Assembly (NCBI GenBank): GCA_022841365.1
Contig: JALHRP010000013.1
Span: 1-64,000, forward strand
DNA: 64,000 nt
From: Chitinophagaceae bacterium
Lineage (GTDB): Bacteria; Bacteroidota; Bacteroidia; Chitinophagales; Chitinophagaceae
Direction: 5' to 3'
A program made the position numbers and the translations under genes. The notes beneath the pieces were generated by a model that was not told the DNA's origin, did no database searches, and worked only from the letters and a program-made list of their open reading frames with translations. The stretch's first letter is position 1; each line of letters begins with the position of its first letter. This document shows, piece after piece, positions 7,108 to 51,004 of the stretch.

Positions 7108-7557
7108 TTAATTATTTTTTACAACCATGGTGTTTGTCCAGCTGTCGTGCCACATTTTTAATCCAAAGAAAGCACTGAATACTTCAAAAGGAACAATTCG
7201 GCAAAGCGTACGCATAAATGCTTTGCCATAGGTCATTGGTTCTCCATCATCCCGAACCACACGGGTTTTGGTAATAAACTTACCCAGTGATTTTCCATTC
7301 GTTCCTTCAAACAATGTGTAGTAAGCAAAAAATGTAATAAAAGAAATCAGGTAAGTGAACGCTATAAATCCACCCGACTCATCGTTTAATGTTTCGCCAT
7401 TGCTTGCATAATAAATACCTATAAACACACCAACAAGGGATAAAATCAAATAGAAAGCGATCATATCAATCAGATAATTTAAAAATCGCTGACCGGCACT
7501 TGCATACTCCAACGTTGGTTCAGTAAATTCATTGAGCAGGTTTGTTTCTTGTTCCAT
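7108..7557 (-). CDS. RDD family membrane protein
   Basis: This 149-residue protein starts with AGQRFLNYLIDMIAFYLI (the R and D of the RDD signature) and has about three hydrophobic segments. It carries the family motif NGKSLGKFITKTRVV before the last part. RDD proteins are small integral membrane proteins; some are linked to ion transport, but most have no assigned role. The gene stands alone on the minus strand. An AT-rich leader with a near match to the -7 box (TAAGTTTA) lies upstream. Confidence 0.88.
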   Translation of the reverse strand: MEQETNLLNEFTEPTLEYASAGQRFLNYLIDMIAFYLILSLVGVFIGIYYASNGETLNDESGGFIAFTYLISFITFFAYYTLFEGTNGKSLGKFITKTRVVRDDGEPMTYGKAFMRTLCRIVPFEVFSAFFGLKMWHDSWTNTMVVKNN

Positions 7558-8820: not shown

Positions 8821-9267
8821 TTATTTTTTCTTCTTCTTTTCTATTCTGCTTGCTTCTCCGGAAGCGGAGAGCCTGTAAATACTTTTATAATTGTCGTTTT
8901 CTGTTTTAACAAGGTAATAAAGCTCTCCTTCTTTGCTGATCTCTGCAATGCTGAGAATAGTTTGTTCCTCAGACAACTGCAAAACTGTTTTTGCAGAGAG
9001 GTAGGTCATCTGTTCTTTTTGTATCACCCGCTGCACAGTGGTTACTTCTCCATCTGCCGTGTACCATGCACGCATCACATCTTTGTTCAGCTTAAAACTG
9101 ACAATGTACACATCTTCGCTGCTCGACCATTCTACTTCACTTGCTCCGCCAAATTCTTTTGCAAATGCTTCCGTTACTTTTTGATTGTCTAAAGGCAGTG
9201 GTGATGCGCTAACCCAAGTAACTGCAGAAAAAATAACTGCAGCTAATAATCCTGTTGCTTTTTTCAT
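8821..9267 (-). CDS. Small secreted protein, PepSY-like (BLIP-like fold)
   Basis: This 148-residue protein has a signal peptide ending ...SASP. The mature part begins AFAKEFGGASEVEWSSSEDVYIVSF and has the pattern of the Bacteroidota PepSY-like/beta-lactamase-inhibitor-like small proteins: W near a D/E-rich turn, alternating beta strands, and AWYTADGE. The C-terminus ends in six lysines. The function is unknown; many relatives are periplasmic. It has its own terminator. The family call is by pattern only. Confidence 0.65.
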   Translation of the reverse strand: MKKATGLLAAVIFSAVTWVSASPLPLDNQKVTEAFAKEFGGASEVEWSSSEDVYIVSFKLNKDVMRAWYTADGEVTTVQRVIQKEQMTYLSAKTVLQLSEEQTILSIAEISKEGELYYLVKTENDNYKSIYRLSASGEASRIEKKKKK

Positions 9268-32497: not shown

Positions 32498-33997
32498 ATG
32501 CCACGTTACCAGTCAAGTCTACCAATTCAAAAAGACAACCCATCCGATGTTTTAGCAATTTGCTACGGTAGTTTTCAGAAAACAGGCTGGGACATTAAAT
32601 ATGCCGCAACTGATAAACTTTTTGCTTACACACCTGGCAATATTTTTTCAAAGAGTATGGAAGTGTGTGTTACTGTTACAGAAAATGAGCTTATTGTTTC
32701 AAGTGAGATGATTAACGATGAAATGATGGATCTGACTAAGAAAAATAAAAAAAACGTTGAAACATTTCTTATGGCTTATGAAGAAACTTCAAAGTCAATT
32801 CCCGCAGAGACAATCGAAAAAAATAAACTCGCCATTCAACATCTTATCGAGGATACAGCTAAGGCTGCAGAACAGGAAGTAAAAGAAATTACTGAGTTGA
32901 ATGAAGCCATGAATCTGGGCAACGGAAGCCTTACCATAACTTATGCTATTATAGGTATTAATGTTTTGATTTTTATTTTGATGGCAATCAGTGGTGCAGG
33001 TATTTTTGAGGCAAATGGACTTGTACATCTCAAATGGGGAAGTAATTATGGTCCGCTTACTCTTAGTGGTGATTGGTGGCGATTATTTACAGCCATGTTT
33101 CTTCACTTTGGCATCATCCATCTTGCATTAAACATGTATGCCCTTTTTTCAATTGCTTCTTATCTGGAGCCTATGCTTGGCAAAGCCCGTTATATTACGG
33201 CTTACGTTTGCACCGGTATTATTGCAAGCCTTGTGAGTTTGTGGTGGCATACTGAACCGGCAAACAGTGCAGGAGCCTCAGGAGCTGTATTTGGCATGTA
33301 TGGCGTGTTTTTGGCATTACTCACCACCAATCTTATTCCCAAAAAAGTTCGACAACCCTTGCTTCAAAGCATCGTTGTATTTGTGCTTTACAATCTTGTA
33401 TACGGCTTAAAGGGAGGAATTGACAATGCAGCACATATTGGTGGTTTGGGAAGCGGAATATTGGTTGGTTATTTATTTTCTTACGGACTTCGCAAAGAAA
33501 AAACAGATCAACCTGTTTCATGGATTATTCCGGTTACAATTGCAGTTTGTCTGCTCGTTTGTACAGTTTATCTGCGACAAAATCAATCATCGCCTCAAGA
33601 ACGCACTGCTATTATATCTGAGCTGAATGATGCAGGATATTCGGATGCAGATCGGTTTAATGATTTATATAATCAATTTGTTACTCTGCAGGATGAAGCT
33701 TTGCAGGTATATAAAGAGCATGAAGATAATGCTGCTGTACTGGCAGGGCAATTGCAGACAAAAGCAATTCCAAAATGGGAGCAGGCAGACAATGTTGCCC
33801 AAAAGCTTTTAAAGCTAACAGTGAGTGAAAAAATGAAAGCTAAAGCCACTGTTGTAAGCAACTATATTCAGTTACGTAAAACGGAAACGGAGCTTGCCAT
33901 TAAAATAATAAATGACTCAGCAAATAGTTCAGCTTACAGTCAACAACTTGAAATTGTTCGTCAACGTATAGAAGAAGAGGTTGTGAAATTAAAATAA
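32498..33997 (+). CDS. Rhomboid family intramembrane serine protease with extra domains
   Basis: This is a 499-residue protein. The rhomboid core (about residues 150-340) has WWRLFTAMFLHFGIIHLALNM (conserved HxxxN-type segment), the active-site SAGASGAVFGMYG (GxSG serine) and NAAHIGGLGSG (catalytic His). The N-terminal ~140 residues are soluble with no recognised motif. The C-terminal ~140 residues after the last membrane segment are helical and probably coiled coil. It cleaves membrane proteins within the bilayer; the substrate is unknown. No neighbour suggests one. Confidence 0.88.
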   Translation: MPRYQSSLPIQKDNPSDVLAICYGSFQKTGWDIKYAATDKLFAYTPGNIFSKSMEVCVTVTENELIVSSEMINDEMMDLTKKNKKNVETFLMAYEETSKSIPAETIEKNKLAIQHLIEDTAKAAEQEVKEITELNEAMNLGNGSLTITYAIIGINVLIFILMAISGAGIFEANGLVHLKWGSNYGPLTLSGDWWRLFTAMFLHFGIIHLALNMYALFSIASYLEPMLGKARYITAYVCTGIIASLVSLWWHTEPANSAGASGAVFGMYGVFLALLTTNLIPKKVRQPLLQSIVVFVLYNLVYGLKGGIDNAAHIGGLGSGILVGYLFSYGLRKEKTDQPVSWIIPVTIAVCLLVCTVYLRQNQSSPQERTAIISELNDAGYSDADRFNDLYNQFVTLQDEALQVYKEHEDNAAVLAGQLQTKAIPKWEQADNVAQKLLKLTVSEKMKAKATVVSNYIQLRKTETELAIKIINDSANSSAYSQQLEIVRQRIEEEVVKLK

Positions 33998-38761: not shown

Positions 38762-39301
38762 ATGGAATACGGAAAATTAATTGCAGTAACCGGAATGCCC
38801 GGTTTGTACGAACTGATCAGCAGTAAAAGCGATGGTGCCATTGTGCGTTCACTGGAAGATAATTCAACAAAATTTGCTTCTACCCGTCAACATCAGTTTT
38901 CACACCTCGAGAGTATTGAAATTTATACCATTCGTGATAATGTGAATTTAACCGATGTGTTTAAGGCAATGGAGGCAGATGGCGGAAAACTTCCCGATGA
39001 GAAAGATGGCAAGGCGATCAAATCCTATTTTGAAAAAGTGTTTCCGGATATGGATTTTGAACGTGTGTACACAAGCGATATGAAAAAGATGGTAAAATGG
39101 TACAGCGTCATCAAAGCCAAAGGCATTGAAATTAAATTAAGTGAGCAGGCGATTGAAGAAGAAGTAGCACCTGTTGAAGAAGCAGCAGAAGTAACAAAAC
39201 CTGTAAAGAAAGCGGCGAAAAAGAAAGCAGAACCGGTTGCAGAAACAGCAACAGAAGAAGCACCCAAAAAGAAGGCTGCTAAAAAGAAGAAAGAAGACTA
39301 A
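38762..39301 (+). CDS. DUF5606 protein with lysine/alanine-rich tail
   Basis: This is a 179-residue cytoplasmic protein. The first ~125 residues match DUF5606 (GKLIAVTGMPGLYELISSKSDG, SHLESIEIYTI, GGKLPDEKDGKAIKSYFEKVFPDMDFERVY). The last ~50 residues are acidic and then highly basic (KKAAKKKAEP, KKKAAKKKKED), resembling histone H1-like nucleic-acid-binding tails. The function is unknown; the tail suggests binding to DNA or RNA (inference). It is found widely in Bacteroidota. It starts after a short leader between the GH31 and M3 genes. Confidence 0.85.
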   Translation: MEYGKLIAVTGMPGLYELISSKSDGAIVRSLEDNSTKFASTRQHQFSHLESIEIYTIRDNVNLTDVFKAMEADGGKLPDEKDGKAIKSYFEKVFPDMDFERVYTSDMKKMVKWYSVIKAKGIEIKLSEQAIEEEVAPVEEAAEVTKPVKKAAKKKAEPVAETATEEAPKKKAAKKKKED

Positions 39302-43306: not shown

Positions 43307-44962
43307 CTATTTCTGAAATTTTTCCGGATGAACATCTTCCCAACCTGTAGCTGATTGCAAAGCTTTTCCCACACTCAACAAATTTGCTTCGCCAAATAAA
43401 TTACCCAGCAGCGTTATGCTTGTTGGTAATCCTTGTTTGCTGAAGCCGGTAGGCATACATAATGCAGGATGCCCGGTTAAGTTAGTAATGGCTAACTGAC
43501 TTCCTGCAAAACTGGGAGTAATCACCACATCAACTGTTGTAAAAAATTCCTGCATTTTTTTCATGAGTAAATAACGGTGACGTTGTGCATTTACATATTC
43601 AACTGCAGGGATGAGCCTTGCAGTACGGAAATAATTAGGCCAGTCGTTTCTGTTTTGGCGTGTGAGCTGATCATCCAGATCCGTTCTTGTTAACGCATCA
43701 AACGCAGCAGCACTTTCTGCGCCGAGTGTTATTCCAACGATATCGTAATTATAAACTGCACTATCAGGAAAAACAACCGGAATCAATTGTACACCCATCT
43801 GTTCAAATGCTTTCAATACTTTCCATTCATTGGCAGAAGTATCTTTTATGCGATCAAAATAATTTTTTGCATAGCCGATGCGTAATTTTTTAATGTTCGT
43901 TTTTGCAGAGTAGTTGAAGGGCATGTTCACAGCGCCGGGATCTTTTCCATCGGTTCCTTTGATGTAATAAAAAACGACTGCTGCATCTTCTGCACTGCGG
44001 CAGATAGGACCCGTTTTATCCAGCGTCCAGCAAAGCGTCATACCTCCGCTGCGACTTACTGCGCCAAATGTTGGACGTAAACCTGTTGCGCCGCAAGTAT
44101 GTGATGGTGATACAATGGAGCCAAGTGTTTCTGTTCCTATTGCAAAAGGTACAAGACCTGCAACAGTTGCTGATGCAGAACCCGCCGACGAACCGGATGA
44201 ACCGAAATTTTGATTCCATGGATTTTTTGTGCGGCCACCATACCACCAGTCGCCTTGTGCCAAAGCACCGAGTGTAAACTTTGCAACCAATACTGCTCCG
44301 GCATCTTTCAGTTTTGTATACACGTACGCATCCTCTTCAATCACCTGATCTTTATAAGGAGCGGCGCCCCAGGTTGTTTTGGTTCCTTTAACTGCAAACA
44401 AATCTTTCAACCCGTAAGGAATACCATGCAGCGGCCCACGGTATTTGCCTGCAGCAATTTCTGCATCGGCAGCACGGGCCTGTTGCATAGCAAACTCTTC
44501 GGTAATACTTATAACGCATTGTAATGTATCGCCCCATTTTTTAATTCGGTCTAAAAAAAATCGTGTGAGTTCTGTTGAAGTGATTTTTTTATACTTGATC
44601 AAAGATGCCAGCTGCATTACGGAATAAAAAGCCAGATCATTTTTATTTGAAGGGAGTAAAACATTTTTGGGAATGTCCCATTGTACAGGTTTTTGCTGTG
44701 TTTCAAACTGCATGCCCGGCAACACCGGACTTTGCCACAGGCTCATGGGTACACTGTTCTCCAATATCAGTTGATAGCGTTTATTGTATTCTCTGTTACG
44801 GCCACGTATGTACGAATACATACTGTCAATTTCAGCTTCTGTGTAATTAATGCTGAAAATTTTACCGGCCGATTTAATATCCGTTTTAGAAATACTGTCG
44901 GGCTGTTGAGCCATTGTTGAAAATGCAACAAATAAATTAATCAAAAGAAATACAAAACGCAT
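43307..44962 (-). CDS. Secreted amidase-signature family enzyme
   Basis: This 551-residue protein (ATG 44962, giving a signal peptide ending ...FSTMAQ; the track start at 45049 lies upstream and is unlikely) has the amidase-signature Ser-cisSer-Lys triad. The Lys is in GIPYGLKDLFAVKG, and the serines are in FGSSGSSAGSASATVAGLVPFAIGTETLGS. It is related to the GatA family but exported, so it is a free amidase with unknown substrate. It overlaps neither neighbour; the GNAT gene lies upstream. Confidence 0.88.
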   Translation of the reverse strand: MRFVFLLINLFVAFSTMAQQPDSISKTDIKSAGKIFSINYTEAEIDSMYSYIRGRNREYNKRYQLILENSVPMSLWQSPVLPGMQFETQQKPVQWDIPKNVLLPSNKNDLAFYSVMQLASLIKYKKITSTELTRFFLDRIKKWGDTLQCVISITEEFAMQQARAADAEIAAGKYRGPLHGIPYGLKDLFAVKGTKTTWGAAPYKDQVIEEDAYVYTKLKDAGAVLVAKFTLGALAQGDWWYGGRTKNPWNQNFGSSGSSAGSASATVAGLVPFAIGTETLGSIVSPSHTCGATGLRPTFGAVSRSGGMTLCWTLDKTGPICRSAEDAAVVFYYIKGTDGKDPGAVNMPFNYSAKTNIKKLRIGYAKNYFDRIKDTSANEWKVLKAFEQMGVQLIPVVFPDSAVYNYDIVGITLGAESAAAFDALTRTDLDDQLTRQNRNDWPNYFRTARLIPAVEYVNAQRHRYLLMKKMQEFFTTVDVVITPSFAGSQLAITNLTGHPALCMPTGFSKQGLPTSITLLGNLFGEANLLSVGKALQSATGWEDVHPEKFQK

Positions 44963-45017
44963 AAACAATGATTTAAAATGTAAACTACAAATTTTGCAGA
45001 TAACAAATTCAAACCGT

Positions 45018-45521
45018 TCAACTACGGAGCAGCACCCATACATAATCATCTAGCAGCATATTGTTTTTAATGACTGCCTGCTTTCTTATTGATTCAAGGT
45101 GAAAACCATTTTTTTCAAGTACACGCATGGAAGCTTTATTGTGTTCAAACACTTCGGCATAGACACGGTTAACATGCGGATAATCTCTCCAGATCTTTTG
45201 CAGCATTAAATGAATGGCATTTGATACAATCCCTTTACCCCAGTAAGGCTCACCTAACCAATAACCGATTTCGATACTTTTACGGTACACATCTGTCTTT
45301 GGCATCACGCCAATAGCACCTGCAAAATATCCGTCGGCTTCAATTACAAAATTGGTAACTGGGTTAACCCCTGTATTGAATGACAACCATTCTTCTGCAT
45401 CCGCCTTTGTATATGGATGTGGAAAGAAATCCCTCAGATTATCCGTTATCTTTTTATTGTTTGCCAACAGCAACAATGGCTCAAGATCTGTTTGCAACCA
45501 TGGTCTTATACAAACTTCCAT
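45018..45521 (-). CDS. GNAT family N-acetyltransferase (RimJ/RimL-like)
   Basis: This 167-residue protein has a GCN5-like fold: EIGYWLGEPYWGKGIVSNAIHLML (acetyl-CoA loop) and NRVYAEVFEHNKASMRVLEKNGFHLE. The pattern matches the RimJ/RimL-type subgroup that acetylates N-termini or small amines. The target is unknown. It is a minus-strand gene between the secreted amidase and a lipoprotein gene. Confidence 0.88.
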   Translation of the reverse strand: MEVCIRPWLQTDLEPLLLLANNKKITDNLRDFFPHPYTKADAEEWLSFNTGVNPVTNFVIEADGYFAGAIGVMPKTDVYRKSIEIGYWLGEPYWGKGIVSNAIHLMLQKIWRDYPHVNRVYAEVFEHNKASMRVLEKNGFHLESIRKQAVIKNNMLLDDYVWVLLRS

Positions 45522-48102: not shown

Positions 48103-49035
48103 ATGAAGCGATACCTTCCATTCCTGTTTCTTTGTTTATCATTTGAACTTACTGCACAGAAAGCCTGCTTTATTAAAGGTGGCTTTATGGCTGCCTTTTA
48201 CAGCCGGCACGATCAGAAAATAAAACTGGTGAACACCTTTACCAACCAGGTTTTTTACTGGTACGAATACAAAGGAGCTGAGCCCGTGATGTGGTTTAAT
48301 GAAAATCTGCTGGTCGTTATTGATAACAACAAGGTTGCACTATCAAATTTTCAGACAGGAAAAAAAGAAAGCTATTTACTTACCGGTACGCCCATTCCTA
48401 ATACATTATTACAAATCAATGAAACAGAAGAAAGCATCAGCATCACACATATCGTCACACAAAAACAAAAAGCTTTTTTACCAAAGCCTCCGGGTATGCA
48501 TTATGCCGCAGCCTCAGTGAGTAACAACGAAAAGTGTATAGCTGTTCATTGGAAAAAACAGGATGAACAACTGCTGAGTATCTATAACATTGCCGATACA
48601 CTGCAATTAAAATGGCAACAAAAAAAACCTGCCGACAACGAGCTTTTTGTTGCGTTAAATAACAATGGTGATCATGCAGCCATATGGAATGGTAAAGAAA
48701 CGGTACTCATTGAAACAACAACAGGCAACGAATTACAAACCATCAAAAATCCATACCGCTGTTTACGCTTTACCCCAAAAGATGAGTTGATCTGCACTAA
48801 TAAATCCAATCAGTCGGCCGCACTGTATACAAAAAACAAAGAGGGTCTATACAAATCAACTTCCTCTGCCTGGTTTAAAAATGGAAATTTTCTTTCGCCC
48901 GATAAACAGGAAGAATACATTGAATGGGATGAAACCATTGTGTCAGATGATTTGCTGATTGCAATCGGGTTTGGACAAAAAGCAGTTGCCTTGTATAAAA
49001 ACGGTCCGGCCTTTTTATTTTTTACGCAGAAATAG
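48103..49035 (+). CDS. Exported beta-propeller-like protein
   Basis: This 310-residue protein has a signal peptide ending ...FELTAQ. Several repeated beta-hairpin units (VNTFTNQVFYWYEYKG, NNKVALSNFQTGKKESYLL, SIYNIADTLQLKWQQ) suggest a WD40/YVTN-like propeller, but repeats are degenerate. There are no catalytic signatures and no recognised family name. It is convergent with the T9SS amidase, the two stops separated by one base. Confidence 0.7.
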   Translation: MKRYLPFLFLCLSFELTAQKACFIKGGFMAAFYSRHDQKIKLVNTFTNQVFYWYEYKGAEPVMWFNENLLVVIDNNKVALSNFQTGKKESYLLTGTPIPNTLLQINETEESISITHIVTQKQKAFLPKPPGMHYAAASVSNNEKCIAVHWKKQDEQLLSIYNIADTLQLKWQQKKPADNELFVALNNNGDHAAIWNGKETVLIETTTGNELQTIKNPYRCLRFTPKDELICTNKSNQSAALYTKNKEGLYKSTSSAWFKNGNFLSPDKQEEYIEWDETIVSDDLLIAIGFGQKAVALYKNGPAFLFFTQK

Positions 49036-49036
49036 T

Positions 49037-50466
49037 TTAATGCCGGATGATCTGCTTTGTGATCACCTGATCATTAATACGCAGTTGAATATAATAGGTT
49101 GCAGCAGGCAATGAACGGAACGCATTTATTTCCTGCAACAGCACCCCTGTTGCTGCCTGCTCAGGCGATGCATACAGCAGCTTTCCGTCGGCCCCCAGAA
49201 TATTGTACTGTAGTTTTTTAACATTGTTGAGTTTTAATTTCATGTACACTACCCCGTTAGCAGGATTGGGTGATACAGAAAATTCTTCCAGACCATCAAT
49301 TTCTGGAACAGCCGTAAGTATACAACCGTTATCACTGTATGATTGAACAGAGGTTCTGATTCCCGGCAGATCAGCATACAGCATATTGCCGGGACATTCT
49401 GTTGCACAACCCTGCCGGTGACCTGACACGTTGTTGATGATGGTATTGCTGCCGGCATGAAACGATGTTGCCAGCGGATCAATGGAACGCTGACAGGCTT
49501 TCCATGCCAGCAAACGGATCAGTGAATTTTTTGCAGCAGCAGTAACTGTCTGGCTGGTATATGTACCCATCATACAAACACCCATGGTGTTCCCGTTAAA
49601 GCCGCAAAAGTGAGCACCCGATACATCATCAGTGCTGCTTTTATATCTCCCTTCGTACACTGTACCATCGGGTGCAATCAGCCAGTTATAACCAATATCT
49701 GAATAGCCGTTGGTGCCTGTATGAAAATTCCAGATGCTTAACACCACTGCGCCCCAGTCGCTGGATGTATTTCCACCAGCCGAGTGATGCACAATTAAAT
49801 GTGTTACGGATGTATTGGAAGGGTTCCATGCACCCTGCGGACAGTTCCAACCTGCCCTGTTAACAAAAGATGGTTGCGGACAGGAACAAGCTGTTACCCT
49901 TTGCTGAACAGGCATCGGTGCCGGTTGCACAGTAGCTGTTTCGGTTGCAGGTTTTTCGCCCGGACTGAAAAAGTTCAGAAACAGATGCTGCAGCAAATGC
50001 CCCTTTTTGTTTTTATTGCTGATGATTTTGAGTTGATAATAACGCATCTCTTTTTCGAGATAGAGTAATTGAGAGACATTGGTATAGATTCCTTTTTCAT
50101 AATGTTCATCTGCTTTTAAAATTATCCAATCGTTCCATTTAATGCTGCTGCAGAAAATCTTACTGCAATGACAGAGTTATCCGCTTCATCATTCAATTCA
50201 TTCCAGCCACAGGAAAAGGAAAGAAATGGAGTGATTTTTTTCAGTTCCATTTTTTTGGCAGAAAAAATAAATCCGGCAGGGAGGTTCTTATCTGCAACTG
50301 TTCTTGATGCACTGTGAATATTTATAAACGAAGAAATCCGGAGAGGTGAGGTTGAAAGTTGATTAAAGTTGATACGCTCATAATAATTTTCGCTGTTCCT
50401 TTTTTCCTGTGCAGCAGAAACATATGAGATCAACAGTAGATTTATAAATACTACAAACCTTTTCAT
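49037..50466 (-). pseudogene. T9SS-secreted N-acetylmuramoyl-L-alanine amidase (PGRP-like), frameshifted
   Basis: The track splits this into two ORFs (50122-50466 and 49037-50047). The first has a signal peptide (ends ...YVSAAQ) and reads to IAVRFSAA, then stops. Shifted by one base near 50143 the frame continues without break through IKWNDWIILKADEHYEKGIY into the second ORF. The second holds an amidase_2/PGRP domain (VTHLIVHHSAGG, GYNWLIAPDGTVYEGR, SGAHFCGFN, SGHRQG) and a T9SS C-terminal sorting domain (FSVSPNPANGVVYMKLK...KQIIRH). Restored, it is 476 residues. A one-base deletion, recent decay, sequencing error or (less likely, no slippery heptamer) recoding are the options. Confidence 0.82.
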
Positions 50467-50542: not shown

Positions 50543-51004
50543 ATGATGAATAACCCATTACAAATTCAAAATGTAATACGCATCCATTCCCCTGCAAAAA
50601 AAGTATGGGATGTGTTAACCAATCCGGCACAAACAAAAAAATATATGTTTGGCTGCGAAACGGTTTCTGAATGGACCGTTGGCAGCGAATTATTATGGAA
50701 AGGCGAATACGAAGGAAAAGAAATGGTATTTGTAAAAGGAACCATCCTTCAACTGGTACCTGATCGGTTGCTTGTTTATACAACCATTGATCCCAACTCA
50801 AGTATTGATGATGTGTCAGAAAATTATCTTACGGTTACCTATGAACTAAGAGAAGAAAACAATGAAACCGTTTTTACAGTAACGCAGGGCGACTATTCAA
50901 AAGTAGCAGAAGGAGAACGCCGTTACAAAGAAGCATATAATAATGGCGAGGGCTGGAACCCTATCTTAGTTGAAATAAAAAAACTGGCTGAACAAGAAAG
51001 TTGA
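50543..51004 (+). CDS. SRPBCC/AHSA1-like protein
   Basis: This 153-residue protein has the activator-of-Hsp90-homology (AHSA1)/START-like pattern: VIRIHSPAKKVWDVLTNPAQTKKYMFGCETVSEWTVGSELLWKGEYEGKE. A hydrophobic-ligand-binding fold is expected. The exact role is unknown. It is a single-gene unit convergent with YceI, with a strong bidirectional hairpin between them. Confidence 0.86.
   Translation: MMNNPLQIQNVIRIHSPAKKVWDVLTNPAQTKKYMFGCETVSEWTVGSELLWKGEYEGKEMVFVKGTILQLVPDRLLVYTTIDPNSSIDDVSENYLTVTYELREENNETVFTVTQGDYSKVAEGERRYKEAYNNGEGWNPILVEIKKLAEQES

Follow-up and report, generated by a model that had tools for sequence, protein, structure and literature searches.

The window, a 64,000-nucleotide stretch of DNA from a Chitinophagaceae bacterium, carries on its minus strand a T9SS-exported amidase gene that appears dispensable and has probably become a frameshift pseudogene only recently; the finding is real but ordinary. 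A one-base deletion in 50151-50138 would bring translation to a halt at codon 115, still within the N-terminal beta domain, and the catalytic and sorting domains should then no longer be made as a secreted protein. The split, the intact relatives, the gap in the sister species and the lack of other lesions are observed; from them we infer that the living cell lacks the base, that the product has been lost and that selection on the gene has been relaxed.

A split reading frame in an otherwise intact gene

The gene is laid out in two overlapping frames:

50466-50122, minus strand: frame A, from ATG at 50466 to TAA at 50124-50122 (114 aa)
50176-49037, minus strand: frame B, 379 codons plus stop (TAA 49039-49037), one frame back from frame A
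50176-50122, minus strand: overlap of frames A and B, 55 bases open in both, the sole region for a ribosomal shift from A to B
50151-50138, minus strand: lesion interval; the conserved codons for S105 and Trp (TGG of KWNDW) are separated by 14 bases here and by 15 in relatives

Frame A opens with a hydrophobic, secretion-signal-like start followed by the first part of the N-terminal beta domain; a search of this frame against Pfam and NCBIfam returned zero family matches. The first ATG of frame B lies at 50047, with no ATG, GTG or TTG upstream of it within that frame, and the segment IKWNDWIILKADEHYEKG is encoded from 50143. A codon-model Viterbi search, blind to homology and trained on the same genome, placed a frameshift at 50136, its only call in the 64 kb.

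With either half or the intact G002 protein as queries, continuous homologues were found in G002, a member of the same genus (513-aa ORF, 61% identity in the C-terminal part, adjoining recA), in G024, G303, G177 and G008, and in about 60 of the 399 genomes sampled from the order; none of those detected was split. In the alignment, the conserved block RFSxDGxxWxxWxxLxxDxH crosses the junction: frame A supplies VRFS, and WNDW...H follows in frame B. Directly past the junction, all 17 aligned proteins share W110, W113 and H121 (positions as in the intact orthologue), and the split homology is therefore not due to chance. Since this block spans the junction with 15 bases in the intact, continuous relatives and 14 here, the alignment indicates that the amidase gene is one base short within 50151-50138. 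The lesion is, as judged from the sequences compared, particular to the genome under study, because no homologue was found split and the overlap holds no slippery heptamer.

An earlier note on this DNA had proposed a T9SS-secreted amidase split by one base, and the domain families, the fold match of the orthologue and the intact orthologues bear this out. Its 476 residues for the restored continuous protein are correct, and the orthologue comparison it had called for narrows the shift, which it had placed near 50143, to the lesion interval. The note had further assigned the first 108 residues to one frame; the split itself stands, but the homology of frame A to its relatives already ends at residue 105.

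The N-terminal domain with RFSxDGxxWxxWxxLxxDxH is common to many Amidase_2 proteins of the order (L003, L043-L045, L048-L069; window 50080-50270). Neither the N-terminal domain of frame A nor that of the intact orthologue matched a Pfam family, and it may represent an undescribed domain.

Domains and predicted function

Two domains are recognizable in frame B:

49813-49385, minus strand: Amidase_2 (PGRP-type) domain (Pfam PF01510, E 5.4e-14; PDB matches to PGRPs)
49275-49040 (approximate, from the profile match), minus strand: T9SS type A C-terminal sorting domain (TIGR04183, E 1.5e-7)

The PF01510 match (53.1 bits) lies above the gathering score of 26, and the frame B tail exceeds the TIGR04183 cut-off (31.3 vs 23 bits), while PF18962 on the same tail stays slightly under its 27-bit cut-off (25.2 bits). 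PGRP-like motifs (HHSAG, SDIGYN, GHR...CPG) surround the His/His/Cys positions of frame B. These residues, H228, H351 and C359 in intact-orthologue numbering, do not vary across the 17 aligned proteins, among them frame B, and we take them to be zinc ligands, as in T7 lysozyme and PGRPs. The modelled intact orthologue (mean pLDDT 74.7) has a PGRP fold flanked by one beta domain at the N-terminus and another at the C-terminus, and Foldseek matched it to PGRPs and to the T9SS-bound RemA tail (8gl6). Judged by this predicted structure, the stop after residue 114 cuts the N-terminal domain short of its later strands and removes all that lies downstream. Signal and sorting domain are out of frame with each other, the hydrophobic start lying in frame A and the tail in frame B.

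Altogether, the best reading of these sequence features is that the gene once encoded a T9SS-exported, PGRP-type enzyme with predicted N-acetylmuramoyl-L-alanine amidase activity, which would cleave the peptidoglycan of cell walls. The genome encodes SprA; in this draft assembly, this T9SS gene is itself split across two contig ends (G000:C68:2-3337, L139, and G000:C105:1-3924, G000 being the genome under study). A second, intact Amidase_2 gene is present and shared with G012 and G002, which would fit an accessory role for the lost enzyme, for example in attack on foreign peptidoglycan. A literature search for T9SS PGRP amidases found no paper.

The amidase slot in related genomes

The closest genome found, that of the sister species G012 (recA 98%; 86-95% nucleotide identity in long blocks), keeps the order of recA, the DUF4920 gene, the 310-aa gene, the AHSA1 gene, the YceI gene and the Vps10-like gene. 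The relevant positions are:

50542-49036, minus strand: stretch bounded by the neighbouring genes 48103-49035(+) and 50543-51004(+); in G012, 46 bases and no amidase
47376-46234, minus strand: recA, used as a landmark of synteny; both here and in G002 it has the amidase upstream of it on the same strand

The 46 bases of G012 take up the slot of the amidase and separate the 310-aa gene from the AHSA1 gene; a search of the rest of that genome revealed no copy elsewhere. Because G002 and the window share the position of the amidase, with the Vps10-like gene to one side and recA to the other, deletion in the G012 lineage is the simpler reading of this synteny. The amidase is likewise absent from the slot in G011. 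Since most genus-mates are without it and the sister species has lost it, dispensability of the amidase in this clade is the best explanation. Its distribution is patchy: only 3 of the 14 members of genus g1 carry it (G000, G002 and G008), and in G008, whose genome is 9% contaminated, amidase and recA lie on different contigs.

Four more window genes have no match in the fetched G012 stretch, namely 7108-7557 (RDD family), 8821-9267 (unknown), 32498-33997 (rhomboid) and 45018-45521 (GNAT). Thus, the gene content of the sister species differs beyond the amidase.

Decay, consensus error or recoding

The main rival to decay is a consensus error, in which the gene is intact in the living cell and one base was lost in sequencing or assembly; we regard this as unlikely, though it has to be weighed seriously. 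The genome is a draft in 326 contigs and the only one available for its species, and assembly errors are a common cause of apparent pseudogenes, which they often mimic (PMC11017572). Moreover, apart from the single base, both pieces look like an intact gene under purifying selection, which counts against decay. However, comparison of 44 other window genes (48.75 kb) with G012 revealed no internal frameshift; four rows were flagged there, owing to truncation of a gene at the window edge, to differing start codons and to a diverged N-terminus of equal length. At the two stricter settings, the ab initio detector reported 1-4 frameshifts in 400 kb of other contigs and 1-3 in 400 kb of G003, a genus-mate assembled as a single contig, i.e. 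no enrichment; as it responds unambiguously to only about 25% of simulated deletions, the comparison with G012 orthologues is the stronger test. Given the 44 genes without frameshift and the similar signals in G003, the assembly is not error-rich, and pervasive assembly error was rejected. The lesion interval also contains no homopolymer of at least 5 bases. Furthermore, the only visible lesion in the window falls in a gene absent from G012; the amidase and the four other unmatched genes make up a small coding share, where a random error would seldom land. The absence of the amidase from its slot in G012 and the lack of any other frameshift in the 44 genes therefore favour decay over error.

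A second copy of this gene, which could reveal strain variation, was looked for in the assembly and not found. Two further candidate lesions in the window were discarded: an apparent frameshift at 38762-39301(+) relative to G002 falls in a low-complexity Lys/Ala/Glu tail, and the overlap of 43307-45049 and 45018-45521 is one between distinct genes, of which the first encodes an Amidase and the second a GNAT protein.

Programmed -1 ribosomal frameshifting or transcriptional slippage could yield the full protein from the present sequence, and the net shift of -1 and the 55-base overlap of two conserved frames would suit it. Yet a strict in-frame X_XXY_YYZ heptamer was sought across 50176-50122 without success, in line with the earlier note, which had seen none. 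Nor does the overlap offer, ahead of the stop, a relaxed site at which the P site and the A site would each keep two matches; it has no homopolymer of at least 5 bases, and the frames of the relatives are continuous rather than split. Programmed recoding is therefore very unlikely and was rejected, as the heptamer is absent and the arrangement is not conserved; that full-length amidase is still made by a non-canonical -1 shift lacking a classic slippery heptamer is hardly to be expected either. Another alternative is a pair of functional genes, one for a small secreted protein and one for an amidase with its own start at ATG 50047, downstream of which frame B carries complete Amidase_2 and sorting domains. 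This start, however, lies about 75 bases past the stop and leaves the upstream codons for the conserved W, W and H unused, frame A ends midway through the predicted beta domain, and a T9SS tail, which needs a signal sequence to reach the periplasm, would have no route there; we consider such an arrangement highly improbable. Even jointly, recoding and separate genes account for a very small part of our expectation. The earlier view that decay or error is likelier than recoding thus gains support from the missing heptamer and the continuous relatives, and the balance between decay and error, on which the note had not decided, now tips towards decay.

Age of the lesion and selection

On the reading as a decaying gene, the lesion would be recent. 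The two halves (about 470 codons) contain no further stops. Since 3.5% of random point changes would create a stop, more than about 0.06 neutral changes per site after the lesion are unlikely (P < 0.05). As dS to G012 in ten other genes ranges from 0.17 to 0.67, the lesion probably arose after the lineage had split from G012, and the losses in the two lineages were probably independent. Bacteria tend to delete young pseudogenes quickly (PMC2916853), and such fast removal may have taken place in G012. In relative-rate counts against G002, three of the four outgroups showed no excess of changes in the window copy; with the fourth (L005), window-specific changes in the N-terminal part were higher (10 to 2). 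The dN/dS of the C-terminal part against G002 is 0.07, at saturated dS.

Comparison with known systems

The domain content places the gene among PGRP/Amidase_2 amidases (PF01510; Branchiostoma PGRP3, PDB 4z8i and 4zxm): the sequence matches 4z8i (E 3.1e-22), the modelled intact orthologue has the PGRP fold and the motifs are present in frame B. Unlike in these proteins, an N-terminal beta domain and a T9SS tail are added, and a frameshift interrupts the gene. It likewise resembles T9SS type A cargo (TIGR04183; RemA C-terminal domain, PDB 8gl6), with a tail above the cut-off, an orthologue matching 8gl6 and SprA in the genome; here, however, the tail is out of frame with the gene start, and export is therefore not expected. 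A single indel in an otherwise intact gene that is absent from a close relative is also what characterizes young bacterial pseudogenes (Kuo and Ochman 2010, PMC2916853), although these are known from Salmonella with several strains, whereas here one genome represents the species.

No new mechanism is involved. For annotation, the finding is a caution that the 336-residue remnant should not be recorded as a working amidase. For the biology of the group, it would provide a small, clean case of ongoing gene loss, in which one species keeps the amidase whole, another has it disrupted by a single base and a third lacks it.
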